A DNA stretch of 64,000 nucleotides, taken from the NCBI GenBank assembly GCA_009917405.1, contig QZED01000001.1, positions 1 through 64,000 on the forward strand. Reading direction: 5' to 3'. The position numbers and the translations under genes are program-made. Below the pieces are notes generated by a model. That model did not search any database. It saw nothing but the letters and a program-made list of their open reading frames with translations, and had not been told where the DNA came from. Of the stretch, positions 57,610 through 64,000 are shown one piece after another (the stretch's first letter is position 1; each line of letters starts with the position of its first letter). The DNA comes from a bacterium c-19. GTDB lineage: Bacteria; Bacillota_I; Bacilli_A; Erysipelotrichales; Erysipelotrichaceae.

Positions 57610-59670
57610 GTGGAATTTATCGCAACAGGTTATTTACAGGTTCAGACATCACTGGGAGATCAGGCATCGGCGATTAAACAGGCGATGGTCAGAGTCTATA
57701 AGGTAAATGATGATGAAGTAGTTTTTGAAGATTTTTTTATGACAGATGATACAGGAAAAACTGAGATGATTGCTTTGTTTGCACCGGAGCGCTCTTTGAG
57801 TCTGAGTGAAAGTAACGCAAACAGGCCGTATGAGACGTACAATGTTCAAGTGCGGGCAAACGGCTTTGAAATGGAAGAAATACTCGGTGTGCAGGTGTTT
57901 GCCGGTGAGTACAGCTACTTAAATGTAGAGCCGATCCCAACGCGTTTGCAGCGAAGCGCACAACGTAATATCGATGTGATTCCCGATCATCACTTGATGA
58001 CAAATGAAGGCGGAAACAACGTCGGTCAAACACCGCCGAATACGACTGCGCGTATTTTGACACAGGTCGCGATTCCGACCAATATTACCGTACATTTGGG
58101 AAGACCGGATCGTGATGCGGAAAATGTGACGGTGCCGTTTCTGTATTATTTAAAAAATGTTGCCAGTTCAGAGATTTATCCGACTTGGCCTTATGAGGCA
58201 TTAAAGGCTAATATTTGGGCACAGATGTCATTGGTATTGAATCGTATTTATACTGAATGGTATCGATCAAAAGGATACAGTTTTGATATTACCAACTCTA
58301 CTGCATTTGATCAGGCATTTGTGAAAAATCGCAATATTTATGATTCGATAGCGGAAGTGGTCGATGAAGTATTCGGAGATTATATTCAGAAGCGTAATTA
58401 TATGGAACCGTATTATGCGGAATATTGTGACGGAAAAAATGCTCAATGTCCCGGATTGAAACAATGGGGAACATTGGATTTAGCGAATCAAGGATATTCG
58501 GCGCTGCGGATATTGCGCTATTATTACGGTGATGAAATTAATATTCGCTCTACCGATAATATTCAGGACATTGTCTCATCTTATCCCGGTGCGCCGCTAA
58601 GAGTCGGGTCCAGCGGACAGCAGGTCAGACAGCTGCAGGAACAGCTGAATGCGATTGCGATTAACTATCCGAATATACCACCGATTTTTCCGGTTGACGG
58701 AAATTTCCAAGCTTCTACTGAGGCAGCGGTCAGAGCGTTTCAGCGCCAGTTTGACCTAGGGGTAGACGGTGTTGTCGGAAAGGCGACTTGGTATCGAATC
58801 AGTTATATTTATGCGGCAGTGCGCAAGCTGGCAGAGTTAAAATCGATCGGACAGATTCAAAATTTATACAGCGGTGAATGGCCCGGCGTTACGCTTCGTG
58901 AAGGCAGTAAAGGCGTTGATGTACAGCTGCTTCAATACTATCTTGCGAGCATCGGGGTATTTTATAAGGAAATCGGTGAAGTTACCATCGACGGTCGTTT
59001 CGGACAGGGACTTGAGCAAGCGGTTATTGCATTTCAAAAGCGCTTTGGTTTGATTCAGGACGGTATTGTCGGCAGAGCAACGTGGGATCGCATCTATGCG
59101 GTATTTACGAGCATCGATCAGGCAATCGTTCCTGACGGAAGTGCGCCTAGTTATCCGGGCAATCCGATTATGAGAGGGGCAAGCGGAACAAATGTTACGG
59201 CGATTCAAAGCGCTTTGAATACTGTCTCCTCTCAGTACAGTGAGATCCCGGTAATCGTAGTTGACGGTATATTTGGCAGTGCTACACGCAATGCCGTAAT
59301 TGCGTTCCAACGTAAATTTAATTTACCGGCTGACGGCATCGTAAATCAGGAAACATGGGATTTATTGTTTACGACGGCGAATGAAATTGATAACGGCGAT
59401 CTTCCGAGTACTTCAACACCGCCTTTCCCAGGAACGGTTTTGCGCGTCGGATCACGCGGCAATGATGTGCTGTTAATTCAACAGCGTTTAAAAGCAATAT
59501 CAATTTATTACACTTCGATACCGGATCTTGCGGCTGACGGCATTTTCGGCAATGGCACAAGGGCAAGTGTAACAGCTTTTCAACAGCTGATGGGGATTCC
59601 CGCCGACGGTGTCGTGGGTCAACAAACATGGCATTTGATCAATCAAACGTATCAAGAACTCATGCAGTAG
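57610..59670 (+). CDS. SleC-like spore cortex-lytic enzyme (SpoIID-like domain plus four peptidoglycan-binding repeats)
   Basis: About 686 residues. An N-terminal beta domain (about 1-120) resembles the SleC pro-region. A SpoIID-like lytic transglycosylase domain (about 155-315) has IPTNITVHLGRPDRDAENVTVPF, NVASSEIYPTWPYEALKANIWAQMS, RSKGYSFDITNSTAFDQAF and CPGLKQWGTLDLANQGYSALRIL. Four PG_binding_1 repeats follow (about 328-400, 428-500, 517-590, 610-683; each with a DG.FG..T...V..FQ core). No signal peptide is seen. The first in-frame GTG (57610) is itself part of the strong Shine-Dalgarno, so the true start may be the ATC at 57619. Confidence 0.88.
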   Translation: MEFIATGYLQVQTSLGDQASAIKQAMVRVYKVNDDEVVFEDFFMTDDTGKTEMIALFAPERSLSLSESNANRPYETYNVQVRANGFEMEEILGVQVFAGEYSYLNVEPIPTRLQRSAQRNIDVIPDHHLMTNEGGNNVGQTPPNTTARILTQVAIPTNITVHLGRPDRDAENVTVPFLYYLKNVASSEIYPTWPYEALKANIWAQMSLVLNRIYTEWYRSKGYSFDITNSTAFDQAFVKNRNIYDSIAEVVDEVFGDYIQKRNYMEPYYAEYCDGKNAQCPGLKQWGTLDLANQGYSALRILRYYYGDEINIRSTDNIQDIVSSYPGAPLRVGSSGQQVRQLQEQLNAIAINYPNIPPIFPVDGNFQASTEAAVRAFQRQFDLGVDGVVGKATWYRISYIYAAVRKLAELKSIGQIQNLYSGEWPGVTLREGSKGVDVQLLQYYLASIGVFYKEIGEVTIDGRFGQGLEQAVIAFQKRFGLIQDGIVGRATWDRIYAVFTSIDQAIVPDGSAPSYPGNPIMRGASGTNVTAIQSALNTVSSQYSEIPVIVVDGIFGSATRNAVIAFQRKFNLPADGIVNQETWDLLFTTANEIDNGDLPSTSTPPFPGTVLRVGSRGNDVLLIQQRLKAISIYYTSIPDLAADGIFGNGTRASVTAFQQLMGIPADGVVGQQTWHLINQTYQELMQ

Positions 59671-59863: not shown

Positions 59864-60847
59864 ATGCCGAATATTATTACTCATAAGCTTTTTGCACAAA
59901 AAGTATTTCAAAACTGTGATAAGCAAGATATTAAGAATATGATAGAAAAACATCTGCAATTATTTTATATTGGTTCTAACGGACCTGATTTTTTGTTTTT
60001 TTATCATATGCAGCCAAAGGAAATGATGAAGGAACATTCCTTGAACCATATCGGTAGTGCGCTGCATGCCGGCAATGTCAATGCATTTTATGAAAGTGCG
60101 GTCAATACGATTAAGCAAGAACAAGATCCGTTTACCAAGGAAAGCGAGCTTGTATACCTGTTCGGACATCTTTGTCACTGGGCGTTGGATATGAGTGTGC
60201 ATCCGTATATATTTTATCGCACCGGTCATAATACACGCTTAAGCAGCAGCTATCATCATCGGTTTGAATCCATGCTCGATGCGATTATGCTGAAACATTT
60301 TTATCATATGGATATCAGTGAATATCACTGCTCAGCAATCTGCGAGTTTGATCGTGAAATGTTGAAAGCGATCGCTCGCATTTATGTACCGGCGGTAAAA
60401 GCCGCATTAAATGAACAAATTCATGTTAATCAGCTGCGCAATGCATTAATAAGTTGGCGAAAAGTTCAGGAATTGCTGTATGATCCAAAACAGAATAAAA
60501 AAAGTGTACTTCAAAAAGTGGAGCATATCATAAAACAGCCGTGGCTTGTATCGGGCAATGTGATTCCCACACAAATTGATGAGACATATGATGTCATGAA
60601 TTGGAATAAACAAACATGGTGCCACCCATGTGATCAAACCCAAGTCAGTAATGCTTCTTTTTTAGAAATGTTTGAAAATGCGATTTCATTAGCAATAAGT
60701 GTATGGAAAAAAGCCTACGGCTGTATTGAATATGATGCGGATATTCATGCATTGCTCAATGAAATTGATGATCGTGCATATGATACAGGGAGAAAGGGGA
60801 ATGCGGAAATGAAATATTTCGCTTGTATCTATGATGAAACTGTTTGA
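59864..60847 (+). CDS. Zinc-dependent phospholipase C-family protein
   Basis: 327 residues with the zinc-dependent phospholipase C-like fold: MPNIITHKLFAQKVF, then IGSNGPDFLFFYH (about 35-47), and histidines in LFGHLCHWALDMSVHPYIFYRTGH and SSYHHRFESMLDAIMLKHFY (about 98-150) as likely zinc ligands. No signal peptide, so intracellular action is likely; the physiological substrate is unknown. The ATG follows GGAGGGCGCAT. The gene overlaps the M19 dipeptidase by 17 nt. Confidence 0.85.
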   Translation: MPNIITHKLFAQKVFQNCDKQDIKNMIEKHLQLFYIGSNGPDFLFFYHMQPKEMMKEHSLNHIGSALHAGNVNAFYESAVNTIKQEQDPFTKESELVYLFGHLCHWALDMSVHPYIFYRTGHNTRLSSSYHHRFESMLDAIMLKHFYHMDISEYHCSAICEFDREMLKAIARIYVPAVKAALNEQIHVNQLRNALISWRKVQELLYDPKQNKKSVLQKVEHIIKQPWLVSGNVIPTQIDETYDVMNWNKQTWCHPCDQTQVSNASFLEMFENAISLAISVWKKAYGCIEYDADIHALLNEIDDRAYDTGRKGNAEMKYFACIYDETV

Positions 60848-61769
60848 TTTACACGGTGATACCGGCTATGCGGTTATGAAGCTGAGAGCGCAGGGGAAAC
60901 AGAATATTATCAATGACTTTCAGTTGAAAAAGCGAGTACAGGGCGGATTTCAATGGTTGTGTAGCGCATCGTATTTTGAGGGCAGTGAAACATGGGAAGA
61001 CATGCAGGCAATGATTCTTGCACTGCGGGAAGAAATTGCTTTGTGTACCGATGTTAAGCAGGTTCATCAGGCTGTTGATCTTGAACCGTCCGCACAGCTG
61101 CAAATGATCTTAAGTGTAGAAGGAATGTGCGGTATCAGGGAAGATGCAGAAGCTAAAATTGACTGGTTGTATGAACATGACATCAAACTGGCATCACTAG
61201 TTTGGAATGAGAAAAATGCCTTGGCAAATGGTGTAAAAGGTGATTTTAACAGCGGTTTAACCGATATGGGAAAATGTGTTGTGAAACGTATGAGTGAGCA
61301 CGGAATGATGATCGATGTTTCACATGCCAATGAAAAAACTTTTTGGGATATTATGAAATACGCCCAGACACCCGTCATTGCATCACATTCCAACGCACGT
61401 GCATTATGCGATCATCCGCGCAATCTATATGATGAACAGCTGCGGGCAATCGCTGATCGCGGTGGTTTGGTCGGAATCGTTTGTGCCGGTGCTTTTGTGC
61501 ATCGGGAGCGAGACAAACAGACTGTTTCACAGCTTGTGAAGCATATTCAATATTTAAAGCAGTTGATCGGAATTGACCATATTGCTTTGGGATGCGATTT
61601 TATGGATGATTATGATAACGCACAGGATACAATGTTAACGGACTTGAACAGTCCGAAAGGTGCACAGCGCATCATCATAGAAATGCGCAAACAAGGCTTT
61701 AATGAAACAGAAATTAAACAGATTGCTTATAAAAATGCCTATGAATTTTTTCAGCGGCATTTAGACTGA
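60831..61769 (+). CDS. Membrane dipeptidase-like (M19) peptidase
   Basis: A 312-residue M19 renal-dipeptidase-family zinc hydrolase that cleaves dipeptides, often with a D-amino acid at the C-terminus. The metal-binding blocks are MMKLFDLHGDTGYAV (HxD, about 7-9), the Glu of ILSVEGM (about 93), MIDVSHANEKTFWD (about 162) and HSNARALCDHPRNL (about 182-195), then IDHIALGCDFMDDY (about 245). Starts within the upstream gene (tandem ATG 60831/60834) and lies 14 nt before the translational GTPase gene. Confidence 0.93.
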   Translation: MMKLFDLHGDTGYAVMKLRAQGKQNIINDFQLKKRVQGGFQWLCSASYFEGSETWEDMQAMILALREEIALCTDVKQVHQAVDLEPSAQLQMILSVEGMCGIREDAEAKIDWLYEHDIKLASLVWNEKNALANGVKGDFNSGLTDMGKCVVKRMSEHGMMIDVSHANEKTFWDIMKYAQTPVIASHSNARALCDHPRNLYDEQLRAIADRGGLVGIVCAGAFVHRERDKQTVSQLVKHIQYLKQLIGIDHIALGCDFMDDYDNAQDTMLTDLNSPKGAQRIIIEMRKQGFNETEIKQIAYKNAYEFFQRHLD

Positions 61770-61783
61770 CGAAAGAGGGTGAA

Positions 61784-64000
61784 ATGGTGATTCTCGGTTT
61801 ATTTGCACATGTCGATGCGGGCAAAACAACATTGAGTGAGGCTTTGCTGTATCAATGCCATGCTTCCGATCACTTCGGCAGAGTCGATCATCAAGATGCT
61901 TTTTTAGACTATGAGGAACAGGAGCGTAAGCGGGGAATCACCATTTACACCAAAGAAGCACACTTTACATGGAAAGAGCGTGAATTCACGTTGATAGATA
62001 CGCCGGGGCATGTTGATTTTGCAGCACAGACAGAGCGAGTGCTTCCGATATTAGATGCGGCGATTTTTATTGTCAGTGCGACACAGGGAGTACAGGCACA
62101 CAGCGAAACACTTTGGCAGCTGTTGAAAAAACATCATATTCCAACTTTTCTGTTTGTGAATAAAACGGATATTACCGATTTATCACATGAGCAACTAATG
62201 CAGGAATTAAAAACATTTCTTGATGTGAAATGCATTGATTTCAGTCAAGAGGCTGAATTGCACGAGGCGATTGCGATGTGTGACGATGAACTGTTGGAAC
62301 GCTATATCGAGAACGAGTCATTTTCAACGAAAGAAATCACCGCATTGATTCATCAGCGTCGAATCTTTCCGTGTTTTTTCGGTTCGGCATTAAAGCAGTC
62401 AGGAATTGATATACTATTAGATGCATTAACTGCTTACAGCGAAGAAGGGAAGTATGCACAGGAGCTGTCAGCCTATGTATACAACATCTCTTACGATGCT
62501 TCGGGAACTCGTTTAACACATGTGAAAATTAACGGCGGCAGTATTGTCAATAAGCAGTTATTGTTTGATGAAAAAATCGATCAGATCCGCTGTTATCACG
62601 GAAATGATTATACTTGTGTGAATAGTGCTGTAGCAGGACAGGTCGTTGCATTGTGTGGACTTAAGCATACAAAAATCAAAGATTCGTTACATTTTCAAAG
62701 TGAGGATTCTGCGGCTTGTATATCGGCTGCTTTTCTTTATCGCTTAGTACCGCCTGCGAACGTGGATGATGCCGAGATGATGAAAAAGCTGCAATGGCTT
62801 ATCGAAGAGGAACCGACTTTGCAGCTTCATTATGATCGGCAGTTGAAAGAGATCCGTTTACAACTGTACGGCGAAGTTCAAAAGGAAGTGCTGATCGAGC
62901 GCATCAGACAGCGAACTGGAGTGATGGTCAGCTTTGAAGAAGGCAGTATTGCTTATCAGGAAACGATCGCTTATCCGATGGAAGGCGTCGGACATTATGA
63001 GATGTTAAAGCATTATGCCGAGGTGCATTTACGCCTGATTCCGTTAAAGCGCGACAGTGGATTAAAGTTTGACAGTATGTGTCCGTCTACGATGATTCCG
63101 TCCGCGTCTCAGCGAATGATTCTTCATTATCTTCAAACTTCATCTTTGACTGGTGTCATCAACGGCAGTCCGCTCACTGATATGGAAATCGTGTTAGTAA
63201 GCGGCAAGGTTCATGAGAAGCACACATCAGGAAATGATTTACGGGAAGCGACACTGCGGGCGTTAAAACAAGGCTTACAGATGGGAAAAAGTCTGCTTTT
63301 GGAGCCGACAGCACACTTTCGCTTGTCGATACCGGCGTCTGCGTTTGCTCGTGCCGTGTATGATTTGGAACAGATGCAGGCAAAATGGGATTCGCCTATC
63401 GAGATAAAGGATCAGCTGCGTATCAGCGGCAAGGCACCGCTTTCGCAAATACATAATTATTCATTTACCTTACGCTCTTACACAAAAGGCGAGGGAAATT
63501 TGTTCTTGAGTGTGATCGGCTCACAGACTGTCAATGATCAGGCAATGCTTGATCGCATGACGCATGAATACGCCAAAGAACATAAGCACTTAAGCAGTTC
63601 ATTGTTTTTGATACAGGGAGCGCCGACTTATATTCCTTATGATCAAGTGATTCAATACGCAGATGTTAAGCTCATGGAATCGATTGAAGATGACAGTGTG
63701 AAGTCACACAGTGTACATCGTCAGATCAAAATTGATGATGATGAATGGAAGCGAGTAGTCGCTAAGCTGCATCAGCCGCGGAAGCAATACCGAGAGCGTA
63801 TCGTTCATCAAGCAGCACTGCCGCAAAAACAGCGAAGCGTATCAAAGCCAAAACCGCCGTGTTTAATTGTCGACGGTTATAATATGATTTTCTCATGGCC
63901 GCAGTTAAAAGAAATGGCACAAAGCTCGATAGAGAGTGCACGATCTGCATTGATTTCGATGCTTGCCAATTATCATGGTTCACAAAAAGGCGAACTGATC
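61784..64000 (+). CDS. TetM/EF-G-like translational GTPase with C-terminal NYN/YacP (Rae1-like) ribonuclease domain, runs off the right edge
   Basis: At least 739 residues, open to the window end. The G domain has AHVDAGKTT (about 7-15), RGITIYTKEA (about 50), DTPGHVDF (about 73), NKTD (about 127) and FGSALKQSG (about 200). Domains II-V follow as in Tet(M)/Tet(O)-type ribosomal protection proteins (YQETI.YPMEGVGHYEMLKHYAEV about 388; TGVINGSPLTDMEIVLVSGKVHE about 458; GQ.HNYSFTLRSYTKGEG-like SQIHNYSFTLRSYTKGEG about 557). After a basic linker (about 660-690) a new domain starts, PPCLIVDGYNMIFSWPQL (about 689), the catalytic-Asp signature of NYN/YacP nucleases. ATG at 61784 behind GAAAGAGGGTGAA. 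Confidence 0.88.
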   Translation, partial: MVILGLFAHVDAGKTTLSEALLYQCHASDHFGRVDHQDAFLDYEEQERKRGITIYTKEAHFTWKEREFTLIDTPGHVDFAAQTERVLPILDAAIFIVSATQGVQAHSETLWQLLKKHHIPTFLFVNKTDITDLSHEQLMQELKTFLDVKCIDFSQEAELHEAIAMCDDELLERYIENESFSTKEITALIHQRRIFPCFFGSALKQSGIDILLDALTAYSEEGKYAQELSAYVYNISYDASGTRLTHVKINGGSIVNKQLLFDEKIDQIRCYHGNDYTCVNSAVAGQVVALCGLKHTKIKDSLHFQSEDSAACISAAFLYRLVPPANVDDAEMMKKLQWLIEEEPTLQLHYDRQLKEIRLQLYGEVQKEVLIERIRQRTGVMVSFEEGSIAYQETIAYPMEGVGHYEMLKHYAEVHLRLIPLKRDSGLKFDSMCPSTMIPSASQRMILHYLQTSSLTGVINGSPLTDMEIVLVSGKVHEKHTSGNDLREATLRALKQGLQMGKSLLLEPTAHFRLSIPASAFARAVYDLEQMQAKWDSPIEIKDQLRISGKAPLSQIHNYSFTLRSYTKGEGNLFLSVIGSQTVNDQAMLDRMTHEYAKEHKHLSSSLFLIQGAPTYIPYDQVIQYADVKLMESIEDDSVKSHSVHRQIKIDDDEWKRVVAKLHQPRKQYRERIVHQAALPQKQRSVSKPKPPCLIVDGYNMIFSWPQLKEMAQSSIESARSALISMLANYHGSQKGELI

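Follow-up and report, generated by a model that had tools for sequence, protein, structure and literature searches.

The window analysed here, that is, the whole stretch of 64,000 nucleotides at the start of contig QZED01000001.1 from the Erysipelotrichaceae gut bacterium c-19, ends inside a gene that joins a translational GTPase (trGTPase) of the Tet/EF-G type to a Rae1-like NYN nuclease. The open reading frame of 853 amino acids starts at 61784 on the plus strand, runs past the window and reaches its stop at contig position 64345, with zero internal stops. The genes and domains concerned are:

59864..60847, plus strand: Zn-dependent phospholipase C-like gene, overlapping the dipeptidase gene; near the fusion in close relatives only
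60831..61769, plus strand: M19 membrane dipeptidase gene, ending 14 bp before the fusion; adjoins the fusion in close relatives only
61784..64000 (window end; continues to contig position 64345), plus strand: fusion gene, trGTPase (Tet/EF-G type) and NYN_YacP, from ORF and Pfam
61787..62437, plus strand: G domain, aa 2-218 (GTP_EFTU, Pfam 4.9e-49)
62465..62689, plus strand: EF-G domain II, aa 228-302, aligned and in place, under the Pfam cut-off
62744..62938, plus strand: EF-G domain III, aa 321-385 (Pfam EFG_III)
62945..63283, plus strand: EF-G domain IV, aa 388-500 (Pfam EFG_IV)
63203..63244, plus strand: domain IV tip loop, aa 474-487, GKVHEKHTSGNDLR, counterpart of Tet(M) loop III YYSPVSTPADFR
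63296..63541, plus strand: EF-G domain V, aa 505-586 (Pfam EFG_C)
63659..63862, plus strand: linker rich in K and R, aa 626-693; largely disordered by prediction (pLDDT < 50), apart from one short helix
63863..64000, plus strand: first 46 residues (aa 694-739) of the NYN_YacP (Rae1-like) nuclease domain, aa 694-828 (Pfam 1.1e-43)

The original prediction had read a single stop-free frame with a GTPase followed by a nuclease, and had considered that a stop or frameshift near 63700-63850 might betray two joined genes. Neither is present there, and the EF-G/Tet-type domains and the NYN_YacP domain are all in place. The fusion recurs in dozens of independent assemblies; hence, an assembly artefact or a sequencing error joining two genes was ruled out. 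Directly after the ATG at 61784 comes a GTG (61787) at which translation may really begin; the nearest relative starts one codon later. The nearest named match is 92% identical.

The G domain carries the P-loop AHVDAGKTT, RGITI, DTPGHVDF with the catalytic His76, NKTD (NKxD) and SALK, and these intact motifs together with domains II-V place the protein in the EF2/EF-G superfamily. Across 41 fused proteins the P-loop, switch and NKxD/SAL motifs hardly vary, His76 included, and among the domains of the fused family conservation is highest in domain IV. Within the window, the NYN domain shows D697 and N700 of DGYN. When the contig was extended past 64000, the complete domain was recovered with all the catalytic residues (D697, N700, D743, D772, E776 and D794). 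It scores 149.5 bits against PF05991 (curated cut-off 24.6), so that the nuclease call is supported far above chance; the last 49 in-window codons already match the Bacillus subtilis YacP/Rae1 structures 5mq8 and 5mq9 (E 3e-9), and the full NYN part does so across 136 residues (E 1.6e-26). The suggested structure prediction gave usable domains in an AlphaFold model with 7 alignment rows; their arrangement is unreadable because the pTM is 0.37 and the linker is disordered. A Foldseek search with the whole chain of this low-confidence model contributed just an EF-G match at 2e-40.

The genome (2.24 Mb, 184 contigs) has a single copy of the fusion, which is its sole YacP domain. That copy lies on a 257-kb chromosomal-type contig, and just two plasmid and two phage-collection records cover most of the query; a mobile or phage gene was therefore rejected. 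Two records from the human gut labelled "Bacteriophage sp." (L247:5427-7955, MT835563.1, marked UNVERIFIED; MT835514.1:15288-17765) code for the fusion and may be either bacterial contigs or phage-borne copies. Proteins of the same architecture could be collected by the dozen, as the original prediction had proposed; their genomic context showed no conserved operon, the commonest neighbour cluster being present in 6 of 39 fused loci. Shortly upstream in the window (57610-59670) lies a protein of 686 aa that combines four peptidoglycan-binding repeats with a stretch resembling SpoIID and by its sequence looks spore cortex-related.

The GTPase half and the Tet proteins

Over the GTPase part, the c-19 protein is about 28-29% identical to Tet(M) and Tet(O), with which it has five EF-G-like domains in common. 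In a GTPase tree built without Otr(A), TetB(P) and Tet(Q), its subfamily forms a separate sister clade of Tet(M/O/S/W), with deep nodes that are not firm. Against the NCBIfam models, the fusion reached 367 bits for NF012153 (tet_protect, cut-off 775), 235 for NF033148 (M_W, cut-off 1100) and 271 for Otr(A) (cut-off 900), whereas a genuine Tet(M) scored 880 (tet_protect) and 1340 (M_W). The fused members scored, a set without the Agathobacter rectalis plasmid protein mentioned below, all remained at or below 55% of the Tet cut-off. The subfamily further differs from the Tet proteins in its C-terminal extension (SVFCxHGAG..V.W..V..YMH) and in the extra nuclease.

The tip of domain IV is also different: Tet(M) has YYSPVSTPADFR where the fused family has the consensus GRAHxKHTEGGDFR, and the loop III motif YSPVST is absent from the c-19 tip, which has GKVHEKHTSG in its place. 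Tet factors bind the A site, and Pro509 of Tet(M) overlaps tetracycline (PMC7456112). It was reported that the Tet(M) triple mutant S508A/P509A/V510A is still active (PMC4750697); hence, the tip difference is suggestive against a Tet function, and the letters alone do not exclude resistance.

The combination of a Tet-like trGTPase with a NYN domain was already published in 2015, and the c-19 fusion is a further member. As described in that paper, the Tet proteins of ten Clostridiales have a YacP-like NYN domain, and a resistance mechanism was suggested in passing as a possible role of this architecture (Atkinson 2015; PMC4342817). The comparison, made by description, shows the same EF-G-like Tet-family GTPase followed by a YacP-like NYN domain in Clostridiales; in contrast to those ten species, the fusion is here found to be widespread in Clostridia and Erysipelotrichales, the stand-alone yacP is replaced and the GTPase falls in a separate sister clade. 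A literature search, with subscription papers partly outside its reach, found no later work on the Tet-NYN fusion and no report of function tests on these fusions. What is new here is the evolutionary and functional reading, namely, distribution, slot loss, tail erosion and the GTPase clade.

That the fusion is a protein protecting against tetracycline or another ribosome drug, which gained an RNase for resistance as proposed in 2015, appears very unlikely. The sister-clade position, a tip loop of equal length, the activity of the Tet(M) mutant and the annotation of a fused plasmid homologue as tetracycline resistance fit such a protein; against it stand the low model scores, a mostly chromosomal, single-copy and, in Erysipelotrichales, lineage-wide occurrence, the replacement of the housekeeping yacP (see below) and a start only 14 bp behind the preceding gene, which leaves no space for a tet-type leader. 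The fusion gene is thus probably not a tetracycline-resistance gene. The original prediction had called the GTPase Tet(M)-type, which, given the tet_protect score, the separate clade and the lack of Tet tip residues, does not hold in the narrow sense; its own doubt about a link to tetracycline was sound on the missed cut-offs, the clade and the tip.

Unfused members of the same subfamily occur in Clostridia, in Ligilactobacillus salivarius and on an actinobacterium-like viral contig. They have the same C-terminal extension, at which the chain stops without a NYN domain, and the tip HxKHTxGGDFR is present in most and divergent in L. salivarius. In the tree, an unfused Clostridia clade comprises about 20 genomes, at least 7 of them without a YacP match, and both halves are found as separate genes in one genome in, e.g., G616, G565 and G662. 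Since unfused relatives occur in genomes without a YacP match, the GTPase has a function of its own. The L. salivarius and actinobacterium-like members nest among the fused GTPases, which is read, from the tree, as apparent loss of the NYN domain. A scan of viral contigs for NYN found none; its matches were confined to Tet, EF-G and three relatives without the fusion. In L. salivarius, the unfused GTPase gene is carried by the megaplasmid pMP118 (L141:3520-5911), where it adjoins a divergent rpsN (ribosomal protein S14). This protein (L141:3977-5911), which scores less than half of the curated Tet cut-off, and the fused protein of an A. rectalis plasmid (L143:5974-8775) are both annotated as tetracycline resistance proteins of the TetM/TetW/TetO/TetS family.

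Distribution of the fusion and the trmH-sigH slot

The overall comparison covered about a thousand genomes, including 296 of the same class as c-19 and 293 of Clostridia; in Clostridia, frames of at least 800 aa were counted as fused and those of at most 220 aa as stand-alone. In the families of Erysipelotrichales (f1 and f2), the frames with a YacP match are, with few exceptions, about 820-890 aa long and thus fusions; G053 (615 aa) and G238 (160 aa) are short, and the exceptions are broken or split frames. A phylum-level sample gave the same picture. YacP was found in 193 of the 293 Clostridia genomes. Among the 149 of these that were listed, 82 were fused and 62 stand-alone, six were partial and one, G721, had both forms; three further genomes have a second YacP match beyond those listed. 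The single genome with both forms compares with 17 expected if the two were independent (P(≤4) about 4e-6, with kinship ignored). Three more fusions occur in family f9 of the same class as c-19, and the GTPases of two of them (L112 and L113, genomes G039 and G057) nest among those of Clostridia in the GTPase tree. Hence, the f9 fusions look like transfers from Clostridia, and it is likely, as judged from the tree, that the whole fusion moved horizontally into this family.

In 8 of 9 loci with a stand-alone yacP, the gene is flanked by trmH and sigH, and the ancestral operon is taken to be cysS-mrnC-trmH-[yacP]-sigH. In the c-19 genome, cysS-mrnC-trmH-sigH-secE-nusG is intact, yacP is missing and the trmH-sigH gap is 11 bp. 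(Pfam recognises only sigma region 4, and not region 2, in the SigH-like gene of this genome, L195:6735-7343.) The same adjacency of trmH and sigH without yacP was observed in 18 of 21 fusion genomes (c-19 and 17 of 20 others with an mrnC locus), with a gap of at most 20 bp in 10 of the 21, and tblastn for NYN at the mrnC loci of all 21 detected none. Slot occupancy differs between stand-alone and fusion genomes with a Fisher p of 1.5e-6. With the slot empty and a NYN domain on the GTPase, the domain was lost from the old slot and persists at the GTPase end. Replacement of the stand-alone yacP by the fusion is thus well supported.

The nuclease half

The nuclease active site is conserved with very few changes. 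D697, N700, D743, D772 and E776 are kept in all 52 fused sequences, which include a few near-copies, and D794 in 51 of them (one E); the catalytic residues are conserved in the stand-alone set too. The C-terminus is different: stand-alone YacP ends in a basic tail, typically LEKIRRxK, with a mean charge of +4.3, whereas in the fused proteins the mean is +0.1 and the motif is gone. B. subtilis Rae1 is an endoribonuclease of the ribosomal A site, and its allele R166P, with an exchange close to the C-terminus, has lost function (PMC6613710); R166 falls within the LEKIRRxK-type motif, a placement read off its position rather than from a full-length B. subtilis alignment. The c-19 domain has the NYN fold family (PF05991; 5mq8, 5mq9) and the catalytic residues in common with B. 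subtilis Rae1, and differs in being fused to a GTPase, in lying outside the trmH-sigH slot and in its eroded basic tail. Because of this erosion, the c-19 protein was classed as a fused variant and not as an ordinary Rae1. On the short predicted helix of the linker, a motif of the type EELxxIFxRTYG with basic residues recurs in fused members and is absent from the unfused GTPases.

In a NYN tree, the fused domains group apart from the stand-alone ones, including B. subtilis Rae1, with one exception, G657. The solo NYN gene of this genome (L121:9787-10308; L074/L121) groups near the fused domains, although its LEKIR tail is preserved, and it is found elsewhere than in the trmH-sigH slot; an unfused GTPase (L234) is encoded in the same genome. 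This gene may be close to the pre-fusion state. When the fused rows were constrained together, the likelihood was better than in the free search, and the AU test does not reject one fused clade. The tree is thus compatible with a single fusion event, which is favoured when the fused rows are held together and is not proven.

It was considered whether the two halves act separately and the fusion merely secures co-expression, the NYN domain maturing rRNA or tRNA or cutting mRNA in trans while the GTPase has its own job. This is unlikely. Unfused GTPases do occur both with stand-alone YacP and without any YacP match, the linker is long and, in the model, disordered, and a role of NYN domains in rRNA/tRNA maturation is an older proposal by Anantharaman and Aravind, as cited in PMC4342817. 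The erosion of the Rae1 basic tail, however, is restricted to the fused clade, which has the conserved basic linker motif; both are what one would predict had the fusion partner taken over targeting. Moreover, the fusion stays joined in most lineages, and clear losses are few (the Lactobacillus and actinobacterium-like members).

A possible mode of action

The fusion is probably the housekeeping Rae1/YacP endoribonuclease of the lineage, a single-copy chromosomal gene for an enzyme that would act on mRNA at the ribosome and in which ribosome targeting would have passed to a Tet-like, though not Tet, trGTPase. Against this reading count G721, which has both a fusion and a stand-alone YacP, the many genomes of the same family with no YacP at all, and the unfused GTPases in genomes without a YacP match. 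The sequence shows the fusion itself, intact active sites, replacement of yacP, loss of the basic tail and separateness from Tet; we infer ribosome binding, an mRNA substrate, gating by GTP and the order of steps. The earlier idea of a ribosome-docked RNA cutter agrees with the replacement of stand-alone Rae1 and the intact active sites in both halves.

In the proposed mechanism, the GTP-bound N-terminal half would enter the factor site when the A site of a ribosome is vacant or slow, and the conserved domain IV tip would probe the decoding centre. GTP hydrolysis would then move or release the factor. In EF-G and Tet factors the A site is occupied by domain IV, so a fully bound GTPase would leave the NYN domain no access to it, and the mechanism needs an extra step: the nuclease, on its basic, flexible linker (about 65 residues), would stay at that ribosome and cut the mRNA in or beside the A site once domain IV has left, upon which decay would begin.

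A related proposal is that the fusion serves ribosome rescue or no-go decay when ribosomes collide or stall for long, with stall sensing by the GTPase and mRNA cleavage by the nuclease of the same chain; in yeast, Hbs1/Dom34 with Cue2 would be the analogue. A trGTPase is indeed combined with an A-site-type nuclease, and Rae1 activity has been hypothesised to increase on stalled ribosomes (PMC6613710). Such a role is highly improbable: apart from the GTPase there is no sign of a stall sensor, and no conserved operon with rescue factors. By sequence, it is hard to separate from the Rae1 reading preferred here.

If the fusion is a Rae1 with a motor, it would provide a natural single-chain system for studying the route of Rae1 to the A site and would predict a trGTPase whose output is mRNA cleavage. 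The public annotation of some fusions as tetracycline-resistance genes would inflate resistance counts in gut metagenomes. Tentatively, the fusion could be a GTP-clocked, ribosome-delivered mRNA endonuclease, in which binding and GTP hydrolysis license cleavage by the tethered nuclease; it would then represent a new functional class of trGTPases and, in many gut Clostridia and Erysipelotrichales, the standard form of Rae1.
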